The position numbers and the translations under genes are program-made. Of a stretch of DNA of 7,181 nt, positions 1 to 7,181 are shown piece by piece. The DNA is from Desulfotignum sp. (GTDB lineage Bacteria; Desulfobacterota; Desulfobacteria; Desulfobacterales; Desulfobacteraceae), in NCBI GenBank assembly GCA_011390235.1, contig JAABSS010000017.1, positions 1-7,181 on the forward strand, in the 5' to 3' direction. Positions within the stretch are counted from its first letter, which is position 1; the number at the start of each line of letters is the position of its first letter. The notes beneath the pieces were generated by a model that was given only the letters and a program-made list of their open reading frames with translations, made no database searches and had not been told where the DNA came from.

Positions 1-255
1 GGCCGTGGACACGCACAGGGGGATCCCTTTGTAGGCTGGTCCGTAAATGCCGTCAAATGCTGTGTTGAAATGGTCGTGCACGGCCCGGGCATAGTAGGTG
101 CCCAGCTGTTTGATTTTTGCTCCTGTGTCAAACATGCCGGTGTTGATGAAATAGGGGGCGATTCTCCCGCTTTTCAGTTGGAATTCCCCGAATGTCAGGG
201 CGTTGCACTGGACAAGAAAAGTGATGAAAGATTCCTGATAGGTCATTTGGGTCAT
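1..255 (-). CDS. pyrE: Orotate phosphoribosyltransferase, N-terminal part (partial, 3' end outside window)
   Basis: The first 85 codons of PyrE, which joins orotate to PRPP to give OMP, the step after PyrD/PyrK. The frame is open to the left edge. The protein begins MTQMTYQESF and contains FGEFQLKSGRIAPYFINTG (23-40 region), the family's N-terminal orotate/PRPP contact block, and YGPAYKGIPL (71-80), a conserved loop whose lysine contacts substrate. The PRPP-binding motif and the catalytic loop would lie outside the window. The ATG at 255 has AGAGGA four bases upstream (260-265); a second in-frame ATG at 246 is too far from that site, so I prefer 255. It lies 51 bases after the pyrK stop, with no terminator-like hairpin between, so it is probably in the same operon. 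Confidence 0.93.
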   Translation of the reverse strand, partial: MTQMTYQESFITFLVQCNALTFGEFQLKSGRIAPYFINTGMFDTGAKIKQLGTYYARAVHDHFNTAFDGIYGPAYKGIPLCVSTA

Positions 256-259
256 TGGA

Positions 260-265
260 TCCTCT
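260..265 (-). promoter_or_regulatory. Ribosome binding site of pyrE
   Basis: AGAGGA four bases before the ATG at 255, in the 51-base pyrK-pyrE spacer. It favours 255 over the second in-frame ATG at 246. The rest of the spacer (256-306) shows no promoter or terminator that I can support. Confidence 0.7.
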
Positions 266-306
266 GTTTGGTTGTGTATGGTTTACCGGGTTGTTTTCCT
301 GTGATA

Positions 307-1128
307 TCACTGGCATCGCCAGGATACATATTCAGACAGGACAACCGGCTTTCCTGATTTGAGCAGGGCAGTGCAGTTGAAATCTCCCATTTTGTCCAAC
401 TGGTCCGAACTAAACACCGGGCCGTCCGTGCACACGACCTGGTCACTGCACACGCAGGCACCGCATACCCCGAACCCGCACCGCATATACCGTTCCAGAG
501 ATACCTGGCAGGGGATGCCGTGGGCTTCGCACAGGGTGAAGACCGCATGCATCATCACTTCCGGTCCGCAGGCATACACCATGTCAAAAGGCGGTTGTAC
601 CTGATCGTTCCGGCGCTGGATCTCTGCTGACAGCAGGTCGGTGACAAATCCTGCATGGCCCAGGCTGCCGTCATCTGTTGTAAAATGGCGTTTGGCTGCA
701 AACCGCTGGGGATACAGGATAAAATCCTTTGTTCTGGCCCCGTGGACAAAAAACAGGTTCGGATCCAGCCGTTCCACCAGGGGGGCTAAGGGCGCCATGC
801 CGCAGCCGCCGGCCACCACCGCTGCATGAGGAGAGGAGATGATGTCAAAACCATTGCCGAACGGTCCCCTGATACCCACCATATCCCCCGGAGACAGGGT
901 TGCAGCCCTGCGCGAAAATATCCCTTTGGCTTCAATGGTGATACCGAAGCAATCTTTTTCATGAAATGAGATGGTATAGGGCTTTTCATCCACCCCGGGA
1001 ATCCACACCATGATGAACTGGCCGGGATGAAAATCGATGGCAAAGTCAAAAAACAAGGTGGTGAAATAAAGATTGTGCACGGTTTTTCGGGCCACCTGGG
1101 CCATGACAGGTTTCTGATCGAAAATCAT
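307..1128 (-). CDS. pyrK: Dihydroorotate dehydrogenase class 1B, electron transfer subunit (FAD, [2Fe-2S])
   Basis: A 273-residue flavoprotein of the ferredoxin-reductase superfamily that moves electrons from PyrD FMN through [2Fe-2S] and FAD to NAD+. FAD-binding motif KPYTIS is at 49-54; the nucleotide-binding motif GGCGMAPLAPL is at 107-117 and CGPEVMM at 187-193. The C-terminal cluster motif has Cys217-x4-Cys222-x2-Cys225-x7-Cys233 followed by DGPVF, the PyrK signature that separates it from NqrF, whose cluster is N-terminal. The gap before the fourth cysteine is shorter than in the Lactococcus enzyme, and Cys227 is an additional cysteine. The ATG shares an ATGA with the pyrD stop; AGGA lies ten bases upstream. 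A second ATG at codon 9 lacks a ribosome binding site. Order here is pyrD then pyrK, the reverse of the Bacillus pyrKD order. Confidence 0.95.
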   Translation of the reverse strand: MIFDQKPVMAQVARKTVHNLYFTTLFFDFAIDFHPGQFIMVWIPGVDEKPYTISFHEKDCFGITIEAKGIFSRRAATLSPGDMVGIRGPFGNGFDIISSPHAAVVAGGCGMAPLAPLVERLDPNLFFVHGARTKDFILYPQRFAAKRHFTTDDGSLGHAGFVTDLLSAEIQRRNDQVQPPFDMVYACGPEVMMHAVFTLCEAHGIPCQVSLERYMRCGFGVCGACVCSDQVVCTDGPVFSSDQLDKMGDFNCTALLKSGKPVVLSEYVSWRCQ

Positions 1129-2108
1129 GGGGTGTTTTTCCTGTATTGGCTGGAAGGGTCTTTTGCAATGGAAACCGGATCATGGGTGATTGTTCCGGTC
1201 GGTTTTCCGGCTGAATGGTGGGCCGCACCGATAACCGCATCCCGGGTGGTGTGGTGGGCAGCCAGCCAGTCGTTGAGTTCCCGGTTCACCATGTCAAACA
1301 CCTGGATTCCCCGGTACCGCACTGCAGATCCCATGCCCACAAGAGTGGCACCGGCCATAAACATTTCCACGGCATCTTCACCGGTGGTGATACCGCCCAC
1401 ACCGATGATGGGTATGGACACGGCCCTGAAGATATCATACACGCACCGCACGGCAATGGGTTTGATCATGGGGCCGGAAAGGCCGCCTTTTTTGAATGCC
1501 AGGACCGGCATTTTGGTTTCAATGTCTATGACCATACCAGGGCCGGCGGTGTTGACTGCGCAAATGGCATCAGCTCCGGCATCTTCACATGCTTTGGCAA
1601 TGCGGCCGATATCCGGGGCCGCCGGGGTGAGCTTGGCGATCAACGGTACATCAATCACCTTTTTCACCGCTGCTGTTACAGCATGGGCCGCTTTCTCATC
1701 CACTCCGAACAGCATGCCGTGGTGATCGGAATTGGGGCAGGAAATATTTATTTCAATAAAATCGGGTCCCTGGTCCGATACAAACCGGGCCACTTCAACA
1801 AACTCGTTCACTGATCCGCCGTAAATGCTGGCATTAAGGGGGAAATCCCGGTCCGCCAGGGCCTGCCATTCCCCATCCATGCGGTCATACCCGGGGGAGG
1901 GCAGGCCCACGGCATTGATCATGCCGCATCCTAAGTCAATTACCGTGGGATTTTTGTGGCCGTCCCTGGGGGCCGGTCCAATGGATTTCATGGTCACAAG
2001 CCCACAGCCGGCCTTGTGTACCCGGGTAAGGATATCACAGCTGTTGCCCAGGATGCCCGAGGCAAGGACCAGGGGATTTTTCAATTGTTTTCCCAGAAAC
2101 GAAATCAT
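1125..2108 (-). CDS. pyrD: Dihydroorotate dehydrogenase, class 1B catalytic subunit
   Basis: A 327-residue FMN-dependent TIM-barrel enzyme that oxidises dihydroorotate to orotate, the fourth step of UMP synthesis, in the cytoplasm. Visible motifs: NPLVLASGILG near the N-terminus (11-21); NISCPN at 121-126, whose Cys124 is the class 1 catalytic base (class 2 enzymes use Ser); NTAGPGMVIDIET (186-198) and GGLSGPMIKP (208-217), typical of class 1B; and IGVGGI with AGATLVGMGSA (235-262) for FMN phosphate. Class 1B needs the PyrK partner, which is encoded next. The tail after about residue 300 is roughly 27 residues longer than I expect for the family, is low in hydrophobic residues and has no recognised motif. 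The ATG is six bases after the nqrF stop with no clear ribosome binding site, so translation is probably coupled to nqrF. The end overlaps pyrK by ATGA. Confidence 0.96.
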   Translation of the reverse strand: MISFLGKQLKNPLVLASGILGNSCDILTRVHKAGCGLVTMKSIGPAPRDGHKNPTVIDLGCGMINAVGLPSPGYDRMDGEWQALADRDFPLNASIYGGSVNEFVEVARFVSDQGPDFIEINISCPNSDHHGMLFGVDEKAAHAVTAAVKKVIDVPLIAKLTPAAPDIGRIAKACEDAGADAICAVNTAGPGMVIDIETKMPVLAFKKGGLSGPMIKPIAVRCVYDIFRAVSIPIIGVGGITTGEDAVEMFMAGATLVGMGSAVRYRGIQVFDMVNRELNDWLAAHHTTRDAVIGAAHHSAGKPTGTITHDPVSIAKDPSSQYRKNTP

Positions 2109-2114
2109 ATTATT

Positions 2115-3329
2115 TTAACTGAACTTGTCATAAAAAATCATGTCATCTTCCACTCCCAGTTCATAAAGGGAGTCAATGACCGCATCGATCATTGGCGGGG
2201 GACCGCACAGGTAATATTCAATTTCTGTGGGATCTTCATGGTCATTAAGATAGGAATTGATCAAATGGGTGTGGACAAACCCGGTGAGTCCGGTCCAGTT
2301 GTCCTCTTTTTCCGGGCTGGAAAGGGCCACATGATAGGTGAAATTGTCGTACCGTTTTGCCATTTCCGTGAACTCTTCATGATAAAACATCTCTTTGACA
2401 GACCGTGCCCCGTACCAGAAGGAAATTTTGCGGTTGCTGTTGATGCCTTTCAGCTGGTGGAGAATATGGCTGCGCAACGGGGCCATGCCGGCGCCTCCGC
2501 CGATAAAGCACATTTCTTTTTCCGTGTCTTTGGCCATGAACTCGCCATAGGGCCCGGAGATCTTGACCTCGTCTCCGGGTTTGAGCCCGAACACAAAAGA
2601 AGAGCCGAATCCCGGAGGTATGCCTTCGGTGCCCGGAGGCGGGGTGGCAATGCGGATATTGAGTTTGATGATATCTTTTTCATGCGGTGCATTGGCCATG
2701 GAATAGGCCCGAAATCCCGGCTTGATCCCTTTGGCTGCCAAATCGAACAGATTGTATTTTTTCCATTCACTCACATACTTGCTGTCAATGTGAAAATCCT
2801 TGAAAGTCAGTTCATATTCAGGCACATCGATCTGGATATAGGCGCCCGCTTCAAACGCAATGGGTTCTTCAGGTTCCAGCACCAGCTCCTTGATAAAGGT
2901 GGAAACATTGTCATTGGACACCACGGTGGCATTTACTTTTTTTATGCTGAAAATAGACTCCGGCACCTGGATGGCCATATCCTGCTTGACCTTGAGCTGG
3001 CAGGACAGCCGGATATTTTCCAGTTTTTCTTTTCTGGACAAATGGGCCAGTTCCGTGGGCAGAATGGCACCGCCCCCATCGTTTACCTTGCATTTGCACA
3101 TGGCGCAGGATCCGGAACCGCCGCAGGCGGATGGCAGAAAAATTTCATTTTGTGCCAGGGCGGACAACAATGTGGGGTTGCCGGAAACCGTGAGGGCATC
3201 GTCTTTGCTGTCGTTTATGGTAATGGTATGGCTGCCCTGGGTGGTGACTTTGGCTTCCACAAATAAAAGTACAAACACAAGGATAATGATCACGCCGGAA
3301 AATATCAACAAACTGAGAAGGTAAATCAC
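2115..3329 (-). CDS. nqrF: Na+-NQR subunit F, NADH dehydrogenase subunit with FAD and [2Fe-2S]
   Basis: A 404-residue electron-input subunit; Vibrio NqrF is 408. Domain order: one N-terminal membrane helix (about 3-24); a plant-type ferredoxin domain with ligands Cys69-x5-Cys75-x2-Cys78 and Cys110 (Vibrio 70, 76, 79, 111); an FAD-binding domain with RAYSMAN at 207-213; and an NADH-binding domain with GGGAGMAPLRSHI at 277-289, WYGARS at 305-310 and CGPPPM at 375-380. It oxidises NADH in the cytoplasm and passes electrons through FAD and the [2Fe-2S] cluster to the NqrD/NqrE iron site. Its presence, with no rnfB, classes the operon as NQR rather than Rnf. The start codon is GTG at 3329, supported by AAGGAG six bases upstream. 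Cys80 is an additional cysteine beside the cluster. The TAA at 2115-2117 is six bases before pyrD. Confidence 0.98.
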   Translation of the reverse strand: MIYLLSLLIFSGVIIILVFVLLFVEAKVTTQGSHTITINDSKDDALTVSGNPTLLSALAQNEIFLPSACGGSGSCAMCKCKVNDGGGAILPTELAHLSRKEKLENIRLSCQLKVKQDMAIQVPESIFSIKKVNATVVSNDNVSTFIKELVLEPEEPIAFEAGAYIQIDVPEYELTFKDFHIDSKYVSEWKKYNLFDLAAKGIKPGFRAYSMANAPHEKDIIKLNIRIATPPPGTEGIPPGFGSSFVFGLKPGDEVKISGPYGEFMAKDTEKEMCFIGGGAGMAPLRSHILHQLKGINSNRKISFWYGARSVKEMFYHEEFTEMAKRYDNFTYHVALSSPEKEDNWTGLTGFVHTHLINSYLNDHEDPTEIEYYLCGPPPMIDAVIDSLYELGVEDDMIFYDKFS

Positions 3330-3335
3330 TGCATG

Positions 3336-3341
3336 CTCCTT
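3336..3341 (-). promoter_or_regulatory. Ribosome binding site of nqrF (supports a GTG start)
   Basis: AAGGAG on the coding strand, six bases before GTG at 3329. No in-frame ATG lies between this site and the membrane anchor of NqrF, so this site decides the start. An ATG between the two is out of frame and stops after two codons. Confidence 0.85.
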
Positions 3342-3347
3342 GTTATG

Positions 3348-3956
3348 CTAGAGGGTGATTCCTGAAAACATCATAAAGGTCATGGCCATGAGCCCGGCTA
3401 TGATCATAATGAAACCAAACCCGTCCAGCCCGGCCGGCACATCTGCATACCGGACTTTTTTGCGAATGGCGGCCATGGACACGATGGCCAGCATCCACCC
3501 GGTACCGGACCCGGCCCCGAACACCACAGACTCGATGAATGTGTGGTTGCGCTCCACCATGAACAAGGATGTTCCTAAAATAGCGCAGTTTACGGCAATC
3601 AGGGGCAAAAATACCCCCAGGCTGACATACAGCAGCGGCGAATACCGGTCAATGACCATTTCAACCGCCTGGACAATGGCCGCAATGACCGCAATAAAGG
3701 TAATGAATTTTAAAAAACTCAAATCCATCTCCGGAAATCCGGCCCAGGCAAGGGCCCCGGGTGCCAGCATCCCATGGTAGATGAGCCAGTTCACAGGACT
3801 GGTCACGGTGAGCACAAAAATAACGGCAAATCCCAGCCCTGTGGCGGTTTCAATGGTTTTGGATACAGCAATGAACGAACATATGCCCAAAAAATAGGCC
3901 AGCAGGATATTGCCGATGAACACGGAATTGACAAACAGACTCAGCAGATCGCCCAT
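3348..3956 (-). CDS. nqrE: Na+-NQR subunit E, membrane subunit
   Basis: A 202-residue six-helix membrane protein homologous to NqrD with inverted topology. Cys26 (FLGICSF) and Cys124 (VNCAILG) correspond to the Vibrio ligands Cys26 and Cys120 of the iron centre shared with NqrD. Glu99 in QAVEMVIDR corresponds to Vibrio Glu95, one of the acidic residues implicated in Na+ transport. [13 protein letters not shown] (147-159) and ADVPAGLDG (171-179) are family signatures. It is four residues longer than the Vibrio protein because of a longer loop at about 61-77, and the usual FIEN near the start reads FIGN (Gly15). The start is well supported: AAGGAG at 3962-3967, five bases before the ATG, overlapping the nqrD stop as TAAGGAG. 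It ends with TAG, 18 bases before nqrF. Confidence 0.97.
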
Positions 3957-3961
3957 GGCAG

Positions 3962-3967
3962 CTCCTT
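3962..3967 (-). promoter_or_regulatory. Ribosome binding site of nqrE, overlapping the nqrD stop codon
   Basis: AAGGAG five bases before the nqrE ATG. It reads TAAGGAG together with the nqrD stop, so ribosomes ending nqrD are positioned to start nqrE. Confidence 0.85.
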
Positions 3968-4598
3968 ATTTTTTTTCATGGGATACGCCGGGCAGGCTGT
4001 TTTTCAGCCAGACCAGCAGCCCGATAATGAAAAATGCCCCCGGTGCCAGCACCATGATGCCCATATCCTGGAATCCCATATCGTATAAAAACCGGGGGAT
4101 AACGGGAAATCCAAAAAACTGCCCGGACCCCAGCAGTTCGCGCAAAAACGCCACAGCCAGCAGGATTATGCTGTATCCAAGGCCGTTGGCCATACCGTCC
4201 ACAAAGGAATCTGTCGGGTTGTTTGCCATGGCAAAAGCCTCGGCCCTGCCCAGAATAATGCAGTTGGTGATGATCAGGCCCACAAAAATGGACAATTGTT
4301 TGGATATGTCATACAAAAAGGCTTTGAGTATCTGGTCGGTGATGATCACCAGGGAAGCGATGACCGTCAGTTCCACAATGATCCGGATATTGGAGGGGAT
4401 CCAGCGGCGTAAAGATGAGATGATCAGGCCGGAAAACCCGGCCACCAGGGTCAAAGCAATGCTCATGACCACGGCGGTGGACATTTTGACGGTGACCGCC
4501 AGGGCCGAACAGATGCCCAGTACCTGGTAGGCTACAGGATTCTCTCTCCAGATCCCCTTGATCAAGATTTCCTTGTAATGGGACAGATCGGTGTGCAT
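3966..4598 (-). CDS. nqrD: Na+-NQR subunit D, membrane subunit
   Basis: A 210-residue six-helix membrane protein. With NqrE it forms the core that holds an iron centre between the two subunits. From the chosen start, Cys30 (GICSALA) and Cys113 (TNCIILGRAEAFAM) match the iron ligands Vibrio Cys29 and Cys112, and Asp134 (FVDGMANGLGY) matches Asp133. The central block LYDISKQLS-FVGLI-TNC is almost invariant in NqrD and separates it from its relative RnfE. An in-frame ATG at 4616 would add six residues (MNKDIC), but it has no ribosome binding site. The ATG at 4598 has AAGGA seven bases upstream and gives exactly the Vibrio length, so I chose it. The ribosome binding site overlaps the nqrC stop (TAAGGA), which suggests coupling. 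Residual doubt concerns only the start. Confidence 0.95.
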   Translation of the reverse strand: MHTDLSHYKEILIKGIWRENPVAYQVLGICSALAVTVKMSTAVVMSIALTLVAGFSGLIISSLRRWIPSNIRIIVELTVIASLVIITDQILKAFLYDISKQLSIFVGLIITNCIILGRAEAFAMANNPTDSFVDGMANGLGYSIILLAVAFLRELLGSGQFFGFPVIPRFLYDMGFQDMGIMVLAPGAFFIIGLLVWLKNSLPGVSHEKK

Positions 4599-4605
4599 AC
4601 AAATA

Positions 4606-4610
4606 TCCTT
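4606..4610 (-). promoter_or_regulatory. Ribosome binding site of nqrD, overlapping the nqrC stop codon
   Basis: AAGGA seven bases before the ATG at 4598 and inside the extended reading frame that begins at 4616. It reads TAAGGA with the nqrC stop, the same arrangement as at nqrD/nqrE. It favours 4598 over 4616 as the nqrD start. Confidence 0.75.
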
Positions 4611-5352
4611 ATTCATCCAATATGGTTTCTACATGTGTCTGGCTTTTTTCTCTCTGACGAAAAATAATGGAAACCGGTTCATATTTTGTCAGGGTTTCCT
4701 CCAGTCCTTCGCTCAGGTATCTGCCGGTGAGGGTGGCACCGGATATGCCGTCCACATAGTGGTCCTGAAGTTTATCGGGCAGGTTTTCCACCTTGCCCTT
4801 GGCAATACCAACGGAAACCAGCTGGTTGCTGGCATTCAGAATTTTTTTGCCCTTGAAATTTTCCTGGAACCAGTTGCTTTCAATCTCTCCGCCCAGGCCC
4901 GGGGTTTCTGAATGGCTGTATATGGAAAATCCTGCAACCGTTTCTCCGTCCTGTTCAAAAGCCATGTATCCATGGATCTTGCCCCACAGCCCCCTGGTAC
5001 TGATGGGAACAATATACCCCTGCACCTTCTGGTCTGTGTGAATCAGGTACAGCTGCAGGCTGCTGCCGGTGGGAGCTTCCATGATCCGGCCCCGTGAATC
5101 CACATGGACCTCCCGGATATGGGTATCATAAATCTGTTTAATGTCTTCAGGCGTGGGCTTTTTGTCTTCCGGCACCAGGCCGGCAGCTTCCAGCAGATTG
5201 GTCTTTTTGTCCAGGGCCATGTTTTCCAGCTGCCGTTCCTTGAGCATGGTGGCGGCGGCGGTGATCAGCACACCGAATACCAGGGCGGTGCCAAGGGCAA
5301 ACATGACCACATATATCCGGCTTTTTTTAAATGATTTTTTTTTGTCAGACAT
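4609..5352 (-). CDS. nqrC: Na+-NQR subunit C, FMN-carrying periplasmic subunit
   Basis: A 247-residue protein with a basic N-terminus (seven Lys in the first ten residues or so), one membrane anchor at about 13-36, and a soluble FMN-binding domain outside the membrane. The FMN attachment motif DGISGATLT is at residues 201-209; Thr207 should hold FMN by phosphoester bond after ApbE modification (Vibrio Thr225). The family signature ETPGLGGEI is at 149-157 and GLWGKIHGY at 121-129. In the pump it takes electrons from the NqrD/NqrE iron site and passes them to the NqrB FMN. Length is close to the Vibrio protein (about 257). The ATG lies inside the end of nqrB (8-base overlap) and is preceded by AGAGGA at 5359-5364 with 6 bases spacing, so the start is well supported. 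Codons 4-6 form an uninterrupted A9 run on the coding strand. Confidence 0.97.
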   Translation of the reverse strand: MSDKKKSFKKSRIYVVMFALGTALVFGVLITAAATMLKERQLENMALDKKTNLLEAAGLVPEDKKPTPEDIKQIYDTHIREVHVDSRGRIMEAPTGSSLQLYLIHTDQKVQGYIVPISTRGLWGKIHGYMAFEQDGETVAGFSIYSHSETPGLGGEIESNWFQENFKGKKILNASNQLVSVGIAKGKVENLPDKLQDHYVDGISGATLTGRYLSEGLEETLTKYEPVSIIFRQREKSQTHVETILDE

Positions 5353-6505
5353 TGGGTATCCTCTTTGAAATTCTGTGTTTCATGACCAGGTGGTCCATAA
5401 GAGGGGCAAATACGTTCATGAACAGAATGGCCAGCATCACACCTTCGGCAAAAGCCGGATTGGCCACCCGGAGAATCACGGTGAGAAACCCGATGAGAAA
5501 CCCGTAAATCCACCGGCCAGGGTCGGTGCCGGGTGCTGATACCGGGTCTGTGGCCATAAAGGAAATACCGAATAAAAATCCGCCGGCACACAGATGATAC
5601 AGGGGGCCGGCATCAGCCCAGGTGCCTTTGGTACCGGGCAGAAAATAAAACAGGATTGCAGTGATGGCAAGGCCGGCAATGCCGCCCAGAATGATCCGAT
5701 AATTGCCGATGCGGGTGACCATGAGAAACACTGCCCCGATCAGACAGCACAGGGCCGAGGTCTCTCCGATGCTGCCCGGGACAAATCCGAAAAACAGGTT
5801 GGACAGGGAAAATCCCTGGTCCGACAGGGTTGAAAACAGGCTGGATCCGCCTTCTGCGTTTACTGCCAACGCGGTTGCACCGGTGATGCCGTCCACTGCA
5901 TCTGCACCTGCCACCCAGATGTTGCCGGACATGGTTACCGGATAGGAGAAAAATACAAATGCCCTGGCTGTCAATGCCGGGTTCAGAATGTTTCTGCCGG
6001 TGCCGCCGAAAATTTCCTTGCCGATGACCACGCCAAAGGAGATTCCCATTGCCACCTGCCACAAAGGAATGGTGGGGGGCAGGGTCAGGGGAAACAGCAG
6101 TCCTGTAACCAGAAATCCCTCACTGATGGGATGGCGCCGGATGGCGGCGAACAAAATCTCCCAGAAAAACCCCACTGCGTAAGATACGATAATAATGGGC
6201 AGCACCACCCAGGCACCGGATAAAAATGCGCTCCAGAACCCCAATGTCTCTCCCCTGGCCAGACCGGACTGATATCCGGTATTGTATATCCCGAAAAACA
6301 GCACCGGCAGCAGGGAGATTATCACAAAACTCATATACCGTTTCAGGTCCAGGTGGTCACGAATGAAGGGCCCTTGTTTGTTTTTCGGAGAAGGCAGAAA
6401 AAAAAAGGTTTTGGTGGCATCGAACAAAGGTGCCAGTTTGGCAAATTTTCCGGCATCACTGAAGTCATATTCCAGCAGCGCAAATATTTTTTTTAAGGGA
6501 TTCAT
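5345..6505 (-). CDS. nqrB: Na+-NQR subunit B, membrane subunit with covalent FMN
   Basis: A 386-residue integral membrane protein with about nine or ten hydrophobic segments from residue 57 onward and a soluble N-terminal stretch that opens MNPLKKIF, like other NqrB. It carries covalent FMN and riboflavin in the Na+-NQR complex and delivers electrons to quinone. The flavinylation motif DGITGATAL is at residues 205-213, so FMN is expected on Thr211 (equivalent to Vibrio Thr236), attached by ApbE, which is not in this window. The family block RNILNPALTARAF is at 171-183 and FMATDPVSA at 316-324. Glu116 in GFFWE and Asp371 near the end align with acidic residues implicated in Na+ uptake (Vibrio Glu144 and Asp397, by recalled alignment). 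It is shorter than the Vibrio protein (about 415), mostly through a shorter loop around residues 76-100. Phe113 replaces a glycine of the quinone site. The nearest AAGGA is 15 bases from the ATG, so initiation probably depends on coupling to nqrA. The stop overlaps nqrC by 8 bases. Confidence 0.97.
   Translation of the reverse strand: MNPLKKIFALLEYDFSDAGKFAKLAPLFDATKTFFFLPSPKNKQGPFIRDHLDLKRYMSFVIISLLPVLFFGIYNTGYQSGLARGETLGFWSAFLSGAWVVLPIIIVSYAVGFFWEILFAAIRRHPISEGFLVTGLLFPLTLPPTIPLWQVAMGISFGVVIGKEIFGGTGRNILNPALTARAFVFFSYPVTMSGNIWVAGADAVDGITGATALAVNAEGGSSLFSTLSDQGFSLSNLFFGFVPGSIGETSALCCLIGAVFLMVTRIGNYRIILGGIAGLAITAILFYFLPGTKGTWADAGPLYHLCAGGFLFGISFMATDPVSAPGTDPGRWIYGFLIGFLTVILRVANPAFAEGVMLAILFMNVFAPLMDHLVMKHRISKRIPNV
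5359..5364 (-). promoter_or_regulatory. Ribosome binding site of nqrC, inside the end of nqrB
   Basis: AGAGGA six bases before the nqrC ATG at 5352, lying within the last codons of nqrB. It supports the 8-base overlap of the two genes. Confidence 0.8.
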
Positions 6506-6517
6506 GATATTGTATCG

Positions 6518-7181
6518 TTATCCTTGTTTGTCCTTGTGATGCAAATCCATACCTTGAGATAAAATATGTGTCAGTTCGATTTTGGACGGGCAGGTGAAAG
6601 AGCACAGCCCACACCGGCAGCAGTCCAGAAGTCCCAGTTCCAGAGCTTCTTCAATATCATCACTCACCAGGGCCTTCATGATGAAACTGGGCATCAGGTC
6701 AACGGGACAGATGCTTTCACAATAGCTGCAGTTGATGCAGGCCCTTTCTTCTCCATGCATGGTGCAGTCCATCTGCACTTTTCTGTCCAGAAGGGTCGAC
6801 AGAAAGGCTTTGGATACAGTGGGCTTGTCCAGTCCCGGCCGGATAAAGCCGAACATTTCATCTGCCGGTGCATCCGGGATGATGTTCAAGGTGTTTTCAA
6901 AAAATCCCAGGTGGGTATCCGGATCCACCGTACGGCCATTGAACTGGCCCGTGGTAATGAGGCTGCTCAAAGGAAAGCTGCCGGCCAAAAGGCGGATGGG
7001 AGAACCCTGACGGGTGATCATATGGGGTTTTTTGTCATTGCCTTTGGTTACGGTGACCATGGTGTCCACCGGATATCGGCCTGTTTCAAGAAATTGTGCC
7101 ATGCGCACCAGGCCCTGGACACCGATATACCAGGCTGCGTTTTCCTTTGCTTCTTTTTTGATGTGATACAAAATTGCCCCT
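6518..7181 (-). CDS. nqrA: Na+-NQR subunit A, C-terminal half, with two [4Fe-4S] motifs (partial, 5' end outside window)
   Basis: About 220 C-terminal residues of a NqrA/RnfC-family protein; the open frame continues past the right edge, so the start and the N-terminal half are not visible. The first visible part resembles the SLBB-like region of NqrA. The assignment to NqrA rests mainly on position directly before nqrB and on resemblance through this region to the Vibrio protein. Near the C-terminus are two tetracysteine motifs, CINCSYCESICP (6707-6739) and CCRCGLCSFTCP (6590-6622), each fitting CxxCxxCxxxCP, the arrangement that binds two [4Fe-4S] clusters in RnfC. Vibrio-type NqrA keeps only a remnant (a CTFVCP-like end) and has no Fe-S cluster. 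The protein sits on the cytoplasmic side of the complex and in Vibrio contributes to quinone binding. The stop TAA at 6518-6520 is 12 bases before nqrB. An alternative label is RnfC-like protein, but no rnfB, rnfD or rnfG is seen and all other neighbours are NQR type. Confidence 0.9.
   Translation of the reverse strand, partial: GAILYHIKKEAKENAAWYIGVQGLVRMAQFLETGRYPVDTMVTVTKGNDKKPHMITRQGSPIRLLAGSFPLSSLITTGQFNGRTVDPDTHLGFFENTLNIIPDAPADEMFGFIRPGLDKPTVSKAFLSTLLDRKVQMDCTMHGEERACINCSYCESICPVDLMPSFIMKALVSDDIEEALELGLLDCCRCGLCSFTCPSKIELTHILSQGMDLHHKDKQG

Follow-up and report, generated by a model that had tools for sequence, protein, structure and literature searches.

Can an ion pump of the NQR type (Na+-translocating NADH:quinone oxidoreductase) hold iron-sulfur clusters in its subunit NqrA? 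The question is raised by 7,181 nucleotides of DNA from Desulfotignum sp. (contig JAABSS010000017.1, positions 1 to 7,181 of the forward strand; hereafter the window). The minus strand of the window is an nqr operon, comprising the C-terminal part of nqrA, then nqrB, nqrC, nqrD, nqrE and nqrF, followed by pyrD, pyrK and the start of a last frame that we take to be pyrE-like. In Vibrio cholerae-type Na+-NQR, as described in the passages available to us (to which all statements on earlier work below refer), NqrA has no cofactor, whereas the NqrA of the window has eight cysteines as ligands for two predicted [4Fe-4S] clusters. An initial annotation had placed two full CxxCxxCxxxCP motifs at 6590..6739, with the spacing seen in RnfC, the equivalent subunit of the RNF complex. 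Translation bore this out exactly.

The nqrA frame (6518..7180; this and all other frames of the operon lie on the minus strand) encodes the C-terminal 220 residues of the protein, its 5' end being outside the window. It was assigned to an iron-sulfur type of NqrA from its translation, from profiles and from a full-length relative (L001:8007-9347(-)). The first motif, CINCSYCESICP, lies at 6704..6739, with cysteine codons at 6737-6739, 6728-6730, 6719-6721 and 6707-6709. The second motif, CCRCGLCSFTCP, follows 39 residues after the first at 6587..6622, with cysteine codons at 6620-6622, 6611-6613, 6602-6604 and 6590-6592. The eight cysteines thus span exactly 6590-6739, or 6587-6739 if the two prolines are counted. 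Pfam recognised a 4Fe-4S dicluster domain (Fer4_9, 28 bits against 27; Fer4_7, 27.7 bits against 27). The half-protein is NqrA-like throughout, matching the NqrA profile NF003761 with 226 bits over residues 1-218; the rnfC profile matched residues 140-208 only, with 69 bits.

NqrB to NqrF each scored above their NCBIfam equivalog cut-off, and the flavin threonines, the NqrD and NqrE cysteines and the NqrF ligands are present. In nqrB (5345..6505; NF003756, 495 bits, cut-off 414) the FMN (flavin mononucleotide) threonine is kept in TGATAL, as is the N-terminal quinone-site segment, recognised by sequence and read in L001. The FMN attachment site of nqrC (4609..5352; TIGR01938, 175 bits, cut-off 144) reads SGATLT. 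Two cysteines for the membrane [2Fe-2S] cluster occur in nqrD (3966..4616; TIGR01939, 284 bits, cut-off 245) and two in nqrE (3348..3956; TIGR01940, 291 bits, cut-off 248). The NADH input subunit, encoded by nqrF (2115..3329; TIGR01941, 553 bits, cut-off 295), stands where RNF would have RnfB and has [2Fe-2S], FAD (flavin adenine dinucleotide) and NADH motifs, of which we take RAYS to be the FAD motif and GGGAG the NADH motif. No rnfB was found among the open reading frames (ORFs) of the window that were tested, and the operon order is A-B-C-D-E-F and then pyrD. The profile matches and the ORF set hence agree with the initial annotation, which had described a true NQR operon with nqrF, without rnfB and with NQR-type ligands from NqrB to NqrF. 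As NqrA has eight cysteines in two complete motifs, we did not file the operon as a classical (Vibrio-type) NQR.

The N-terminal half of NqrA was read from the nearest genome (L001), the DNA of which is 93% identical across the whole window. The L001 NqrA has 446 residues and matched V. cholerae NqrA over residues 6-442 with 158 bits; solved RnfC structures matched its C-terminal part only (317-436 for 7zc6, 368-433 for 8ahx, 372-429 for 9eri). It scored 444 bits on NF003761 (PRK05352.1-4, NqrA; cut-off 450), on which L092 reached 460 bits, and 253 bits on the TIGR01936 equivalog, under the cut-off of 321. The initial annotation had proposed that this half be read for the RnfC FMN/NAD motif, that an NqrA/RnfC tree be built and that the structure be predicted. 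The motif, GxGGAxFP, is not present in L001 NqrA, the corresponding place reading GLWQTLRQLPAR. In the tree the protein does not fall in RnfC. AlphaFold gave iron-sulfur NqrA a fold of the NqrA/RnfC type that is nearest to NqrA; classical NqrA has the same fold without clusters.

Two protein searches with iron-sulfur queries (the best 120 of 414 and the best 120 of 1,655 matches, with no sequence common to both) returned both motifs in 240 of 240 homologues, always 39 residues apart and with no broken copy among the 240 matches listed. A third search, from the protein of locus L086, gave both motifs in 95 of 96 matches, a list that includes RnfC proteins; the exception, P0199, is a classical NqrA. 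The spacing was 39 in 31 of the 40 nearer matches of this search and 40 in the remaining 9. It was also 39 in 41 of 55 two-motif RnfC-like matches, which makes it the usual RnfC value. Among 57 loci taken from titled genome records, 54 (L032-L085) belong to two groups of Desulfobacterota, group 1, which includes the window, and group 2. Four of them, L060, L070, L079 and L083, are cut by contig ends; in the other 50 the cysteine region is complete, and each of these carries both motifs. Species with names and with isolates or type strains are among the carriers: Desulfospira joergensenii DSM 10085, Desulfobacter vibrioformis DSM 8776 and, going by database names, Desulfobacula toluolica and Desulfonema magnum.

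In a search that was not seeded with this type, the TIGR01936 profile matched 17 of 395 genomes of the phylum at 96 bits or more: nine with both motifs (seven of the NqrA type, two RnfC-like), seven without, and one fragment beyond judgement. The motifs were therefore present in 9 of 16 decidable genes and absent in 7. No second match of at least 96 bits was found in the seven genomes with iron-sulfur NqrA. Iron-sulfur NqrA is thus no one-off; marine sulfate reducers carry it, and it is the rule in a clade of sulfate reducers.

When 48 selected rows of groups 1 and 2 were aligned, 30 of 442 well-filled columns were invariant, and all eight cysteines were among them (hypergeometric p 1.7e-10, with columns treated as independent), which excludes chance as the origin of the pattern. 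With RnfC-like forms and group 4 (L086 and relatives, below) added, the 68 rows shared only 15 of 439 columns, eight of these being the cysteines. The first six cysteines are gone in every one of 12 classical rows; of the last two, one remains in 10 rows and the other in 11, in keeping with the degenerate remnant that the initial annotation had ascribed to Vibrio-type NqrA. Such strict invariance argues for a function of the motifs. To judge from the sequences, NqrA of the window type very probably binds two [4Fe-4S] clusters. That the motifs have no function and are simply decaying, as their loss from classical NqrA might suggest, is scarcely credible when all eight cysteines are invariant in rows that share so few columns and broken copies are absent from the matches listed.

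The proteins themselves are already on file. Since NF003761 is the best profile for iron-sulfur NqrA, databases file them as NqrA, and the profile description as displayed does not mention iron-sulfur clusters. Reviews and structure papers state that NqrA has no cofactor or has lost them. Genome papers on sulfate reducers mention NQR, the clusters not being remarked on in the passages available, and the NQR of a related Desulfotignum has been called identical with the Vibrio enzyme. In the passages of the literature searched, neither a description of iron-sulfur NqrA nor a characterised NQR of this kind turned up, in line with the initial annotation, and we did not find the trait, its spread or its tree position described there. 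We are dealing with a real variant of a known pump that is widespread in sulfate reducers; motifs, conservation and operon type are near certain.

NQR is held to derive from RNF by loss of RnfB, gain of NqrF and stripping of the cofactors of NqrA (PMC4014512, PMC12174285, PMC11889175). The A and C subunits that we compared form a graded series. Most RnfC proteins have both the FMN motif and the cluster motifs. In group 3 (L089, L090) the cluster motifs are kept, GMGGAxFP is replaced by GSTGIPS or GPSGIPS, and NGxECEPY by NGLSAEPF or NGLSGEPF. The A subunit of L090 scored 221 bits for rnfC (cut-off 246) and 97 bits for nqrA, and its NqrF is above its own cut-off (311 against 295); the contig of L089 stops before the nqrF position. 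The Pfam FMN-binding domain Complex1_51K is above threshold in the A subunit of L090 (37 against 31.2), and FMN may therefore still bind there. In group 4 (L086) the FMN motif is gone, the cluster motifs are kept and the NqrF-like subunit scored 233 bits, under the cut-off of 295. A 99% identical database copy of L086 carries the name Candidatus Auribacterota, and the search with the L086 protein gave a few relatives, one of them so named. Groups 1 and 2 have an NqrA-type pocket together with the cluster motifs, and classical NqrA has neither the FMN motif nor the cluster motifs. The N-terminal segment of NqrB, which forms the quinone site in V. cholerae, occurs in the displayed rows of groups 1-4 and in the majority of classical rows, with a shorter form in L116. 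It was not seen in those RNF rows that were readable at this place, which excludes L105, L110 and L113.

A tree of the B, D and E subunits was built from 48 operons chosen by hand and rooted on RNF; L001 stands for the window, L091 (odd joined frames) and L096 (cut) were left out, and L089 entered without E. Within the part that excludes L086 and group 3, classical NQR (98/94) lies beside groups 1 and 2 (100/99), and one change suffices for the iron-sulfur state. Forcing all iron-sulfur NQR into one clade cost 99 log-likelihood units (approximately unbiased test, p 4.6e-39), and forcing classical NQR with groups 3 and 4 cost the same (p 0.00022). An A-subunit tree was obtained by a quick search on 98 rows with the ferredoxin domain omitted and with support from the Shimodaira-Hasegawa-like approximate likelihood-ratio test only; P0205, P0166, P0178 and L114 were omitted, and groups 1, 2 and RNF were thinned to every second pick. 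There, too, with L001 again in place of the window, classical NqrA (98) lies beside groups 1 and 2 (97), which share two motifs and no FMN motif and which we propose as an iron-sulfur NQR clade that includes the window; P0142, P0145 and P0146 come next outward, followed by group 4 with P0121-P0123. In both trees the sister group of classical NqrA and the groups next to it carry the motifs. Because the trees put iron-sulfur groups between RNF and the split of the iron-sulfur from the classical type, the motifs look ancestral and lost once. An ancestral origin with a single loss is, on these trees, well supported within the sample.

Certain points weigh against this history. L086, group 3 and the rest form a polytomy in the B, D and E tree, names were given to the tested clades only once that tree was in hand, and long branches lead to L086 and L114. 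Outside RNF1, the A-subunit tree has a similar fork of Rnf2 with L087, group-3-like rows and the rest, which places Rnf2 and L087 on the NQR side of RNF, but in the B, D and E tree they are inside RNF. Classical NQR was sampled from Desulfobacterota, Bacteroidota and alpha- and gamma-Proteobacteria only, so that Chlorobi, Chlamydiae and Planctomycetes are missing. In earlier work the NQR of Desulfobacteraceae, with those of Chlorobi and Bacteroidetes, were early branches, which was attributed to gene transfer; here, with Chlorobi not sampled, the two Bacteroidota sampled belong to the classical clade, to which the sulfate reducers do not. The initial annotation had suggested an intermediate form that kept its clusters from Rnf. 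Retention from Rnf is what the trees and the conservation point to, but on the same trees the group of the window is a sister lineage that keeps the ancestral state, not a direct intermediate. L090, with its cut relative L089, and L086 are nearer intermediates.

Two of these loci call for separate remarks. The group 3 operon of L090 (A-F, 2143-7621) is flanked by two genes for multihaem c-type cytochromes, at 1021-1995(+) and 7867-8889(-), with the Pfam domains Paired_CXXCH and Cytochrome_C7, which suggests a periplasmic electron link there. In L091 (genome G361) a frame of 778 residues (7323-9656(-)) has NqrA-like and NqrB-like parts with no stop between them, and other subunits are also in long joined frames; it is either a real nqrA-nqrB fusion or a frame read-through.

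Might the NQR assignment be mistaken, the operon being in truth RNF or an RNF/NQR hybrid whose A subunit serves an Rnf complex? Like RNF, it has two [4Fe-4S] motifs in the C/A subunit, and the rnfC profile does match residues 140-208 of the half-protein. Unlike RnfC, which has the FMN/NAD motif and RnfB as partner, iron-sulfur NqrA lacks that motif (as read in L001) and stands with NqrF instead of RnfB; the predicted fold is nearest to NqrA, and the trees place the protein beside classical NQR. A misreading is therefore hard to credit. The same host family as that of the window NQR, the Desulfobacteraceae, has an Rnf2 (Desulfobacula toluolica type), reported with a large RnfB and with an RnfC that is without the usual NADH-dehydrogenase and ligand-binding domains (PMC5109826, PMC11887813). 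Three loci (L112, L113, L115) were labelled rnf2 by us on resemblance, not on RnfB size; the two cluster motifs occur in each, the FMN motif in none, and NqrF was not found in them. They form a clade of their own without the window type, and the window operon is without RnfB. Genomes G001 and G334 carry both iron-sulfur NQR and, separately, an rnf2-labelled operon; the latter also occurs in G162. In Desulfacinum, L087 and L088 are RNF-type operons without an NqrF match, the membrane subunits of which group with Rnf2, and the C subunit of L087 has both cluster motifs without the usual FMN motif.

The intergenic gaps from nqrA to pyrK are of 18 bases or fewer, or are short overlaps. Outside the pump, pyrD (dihydroorotate dehydrogenase; 1125..2108(-); TIGR01037, 321 bits, cut-off 270) begins 6 bases past nqrF and is followed by pyrK (dihydroorotate dehydrogenase electron transfer subunit; 307..1128(-); NF000796, 239 bits, cut-off 224). 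A neighbourhood survey covered 59 loci within 6 kb, with ORFs of at least 80 residues, most families of which were not identified; PyrD, PyrK and the PyrE-like gene recurred in 13, 15 and 15 of these. The three genes lie downstream of nqrF on the same strand in the window (307-2108(-)), in L032, L033, L035, L036 and L038 and in others. A divergent gene of about 130-150 residues without a Pfam family (e.g. L001:9531-9992(+)) lies upstream of nqrA in 32 of the 59 loci. A family that contains ferredoxin-thioredoxin reductase is near nqr in four (L054, L075, L082, L097), the catalytic chain being identified in one member (L097:3658-4071, Pfam FeThRed_B). Scanning ORFs of at least 45 residues for a 4Fe-4S motif gave such an ORF in 8 of the 59 loci, all of at least 143 residues; the only recurrent kind, a protein of about 514 residues, lies 4-6 kb upstream in four (L051, L059, L067, L071). 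In L092 an ORF of 143 residues with the motif (10-438(-)), about 4 kb from the nqr operon, presumably resembles the beta chain of adenylylsulfate reductase. Neither of the two 59-locus scans found a recurrent small redox partner beside the operon, and no candidate for a soluble partner encoded nearby is claimed.

How, then, would electrons move through such a complex? Because the NQR ligands are conserved, they should flow as far as riboflavin as in Vibrio, from NADH to FAD and the [2Fe-2S] cluster of NqrF, then to the [2Fe-2S] cluster of NqrD/E, the FMN of NqrC, the FMN of NqrB and riboflavin. Since NqrB keeps its quinone-site segment, reduction of menaquinone at that site likely remains. This Vibrio-like route to riboflavin, with menaquinone reduced at NqrB, is highly probable from the conserved ligands. 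We consider it fairly probable that the product of the whole operon is an ancestral-type, Na+-pumping NADH:menaquinone oxidoreductase in which the A subunit would keep two clusters as a wire close to the riboflavin of NqrB. In RNF, electrons pass from riboflavin to cluster 2 of RnfC (11.7 Å), then to cluster 1, FMN and NAD+ (PMC9588780), and in V. cholerae NQR the quinone site is in NqrB, 11.6 Å from riboflavin. By analogy with RNF, we lean slightly towards a redox-active side wire in NqrA, with clusters at the RnfC positions, about 12 Å from riboflavin. With the NqrB segment and the NqrA clusters in one complex, two routes should be open from riboflavin. Forward flow exports ions, which requires that whatever accepts electrons at NqrA have a potential well above that of NADH; an intermediate-potential acceptor in the cytoplasm would fit, and so would a site that stores the second electron for reducing menaquinone. 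Our preference, a tentative one, is that the wire would be a second outlet, in which electrons pass by way of what was the FMN pocket in RnfC and reach a cytoplasmic acceptor with a potential more positive than that of NADH.

What speaks against such an outlet is that it has no named acceptor, as no small redox partner recurs beside the operon; that quinone reduction can do without the wire, as NqrB keeps its own segment; that Bacteroidota reduce menaquinone without such a wire; and that the ferredoxin domain is not the best-modelled part of the predicted structure (predicted local distance difference test score 56 for block 361-370 and 76 for 371-380). The same observations on the segment and the neighbourhood, together with the fold that classical NqrA keeps without clusters, would suit clusters that are bound but purely structural, fixing the C-terminal domain of NqrA on NqrB and carrying no electrons in turnover. 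We regard this as unlikely, though a serious rival: one cluster could have been lost, and yet both motifs occur together in all 240 homologues at the usual RnfC spacing, with cluster 2, by homology, within electron-transfer distance of riboflavin. Less likely still, NqrA may have no exit, its clusters holding one electron locally so that the riboflavin of NqrB can pass two to menaquinone at the same time. The carriers upstream of the quinone pass single electrons and the quinone needs two, cluster motifs and quinone-site segment coexist in the iron-sulfur NQR groups, and at least one related sulfate reducer has been drawn with a menaquinone pool (PMC2702500). However, in the NQR of Prevotella (Segatella) bryantii, likewise an NADH:menaquinone Na+ pump in a strict anaerobe, NqrA was modelled without a cofactor, and both of the sampled Bacteroidota NqrA (L100, L101), unlike that of the window, have no motif and lie in the classical clade.

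Electrons might also run the other way, with NqrA as an inlet from reduced ferredoxin or another low-potential donor through the clusters to riboflavin and quinone, as the initial annotation had put forward and as an RnfC-type dicluster domain might suggest. We consider this very improbable: electrons that join at riboflavin would bypass the pumping steps, those driven back to NAD+ would make the core import ions, and the nearest genome has a separate Rnf-type operon (L112). Ferredoxin was rejected both as acceptor and as donor by argument from direction and potential, with ranges from PMC9588780; reaching it from NADH is an uphill step at a time when the pump is also exporting ions, which makes it an unlikely acceptor, and as a donor it is unlikely because the pump would be bypassed. 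A closed quinone exit in NqrB was likewise considered and dropped. Residue 141 is Gly in V. cholerae, where any other residue was held to block quinone binding, and Phe in the window; in menaquinone-reducing P. bryantii, bulky there like the window, it is Leu, with menaquinone modelled in a different binding mode, and several classical NqrB have Ser or Phe (L003, L006, L004, L005).

The preferred second outlet would bear on an old observation in V. cholerae, where photoreactive ubiquinone labelled two stretches of NqrA, Leu32-Met39 and Phe131-Lys138, in a cavity about 30 Å from riboflavin. By our own count the second stretch is FRTRPFSK, and it aligns, through relatives, with the RnfC FMN motif. 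Two clusters could span the distance between this cavity and riboflavin. It is an admittedly speculative idea that ancestral NQR was a pump with two outlets, one to menaquinone in NqrB and one, across the two NqrA clusters, to an acceptor where RnfC has its FMN pocket, that sulfate reducers still run it so, and that the Vibrio cavity is its disconnected remains. If true, a labelled cavity too distant from the cofactors to work would be explained as a leftover second outlet.

For the family, the series suggests an order of steps. NqrF and the NqrB quinone-site segment would have come while the A subunit was still RnfC-like (L090), the FMN motif would have been lost next (L086 and the group of the window), and the clusters last, in a single event on the lineage to which the sampled classical enzymes belong. 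Living complexes make this order testable. Iron-sulfur NqrA would thus help to trace the order in which one ion pump, RNF, became another, NQR, and it hints at an unrecognised electron route in sulfate reducers.
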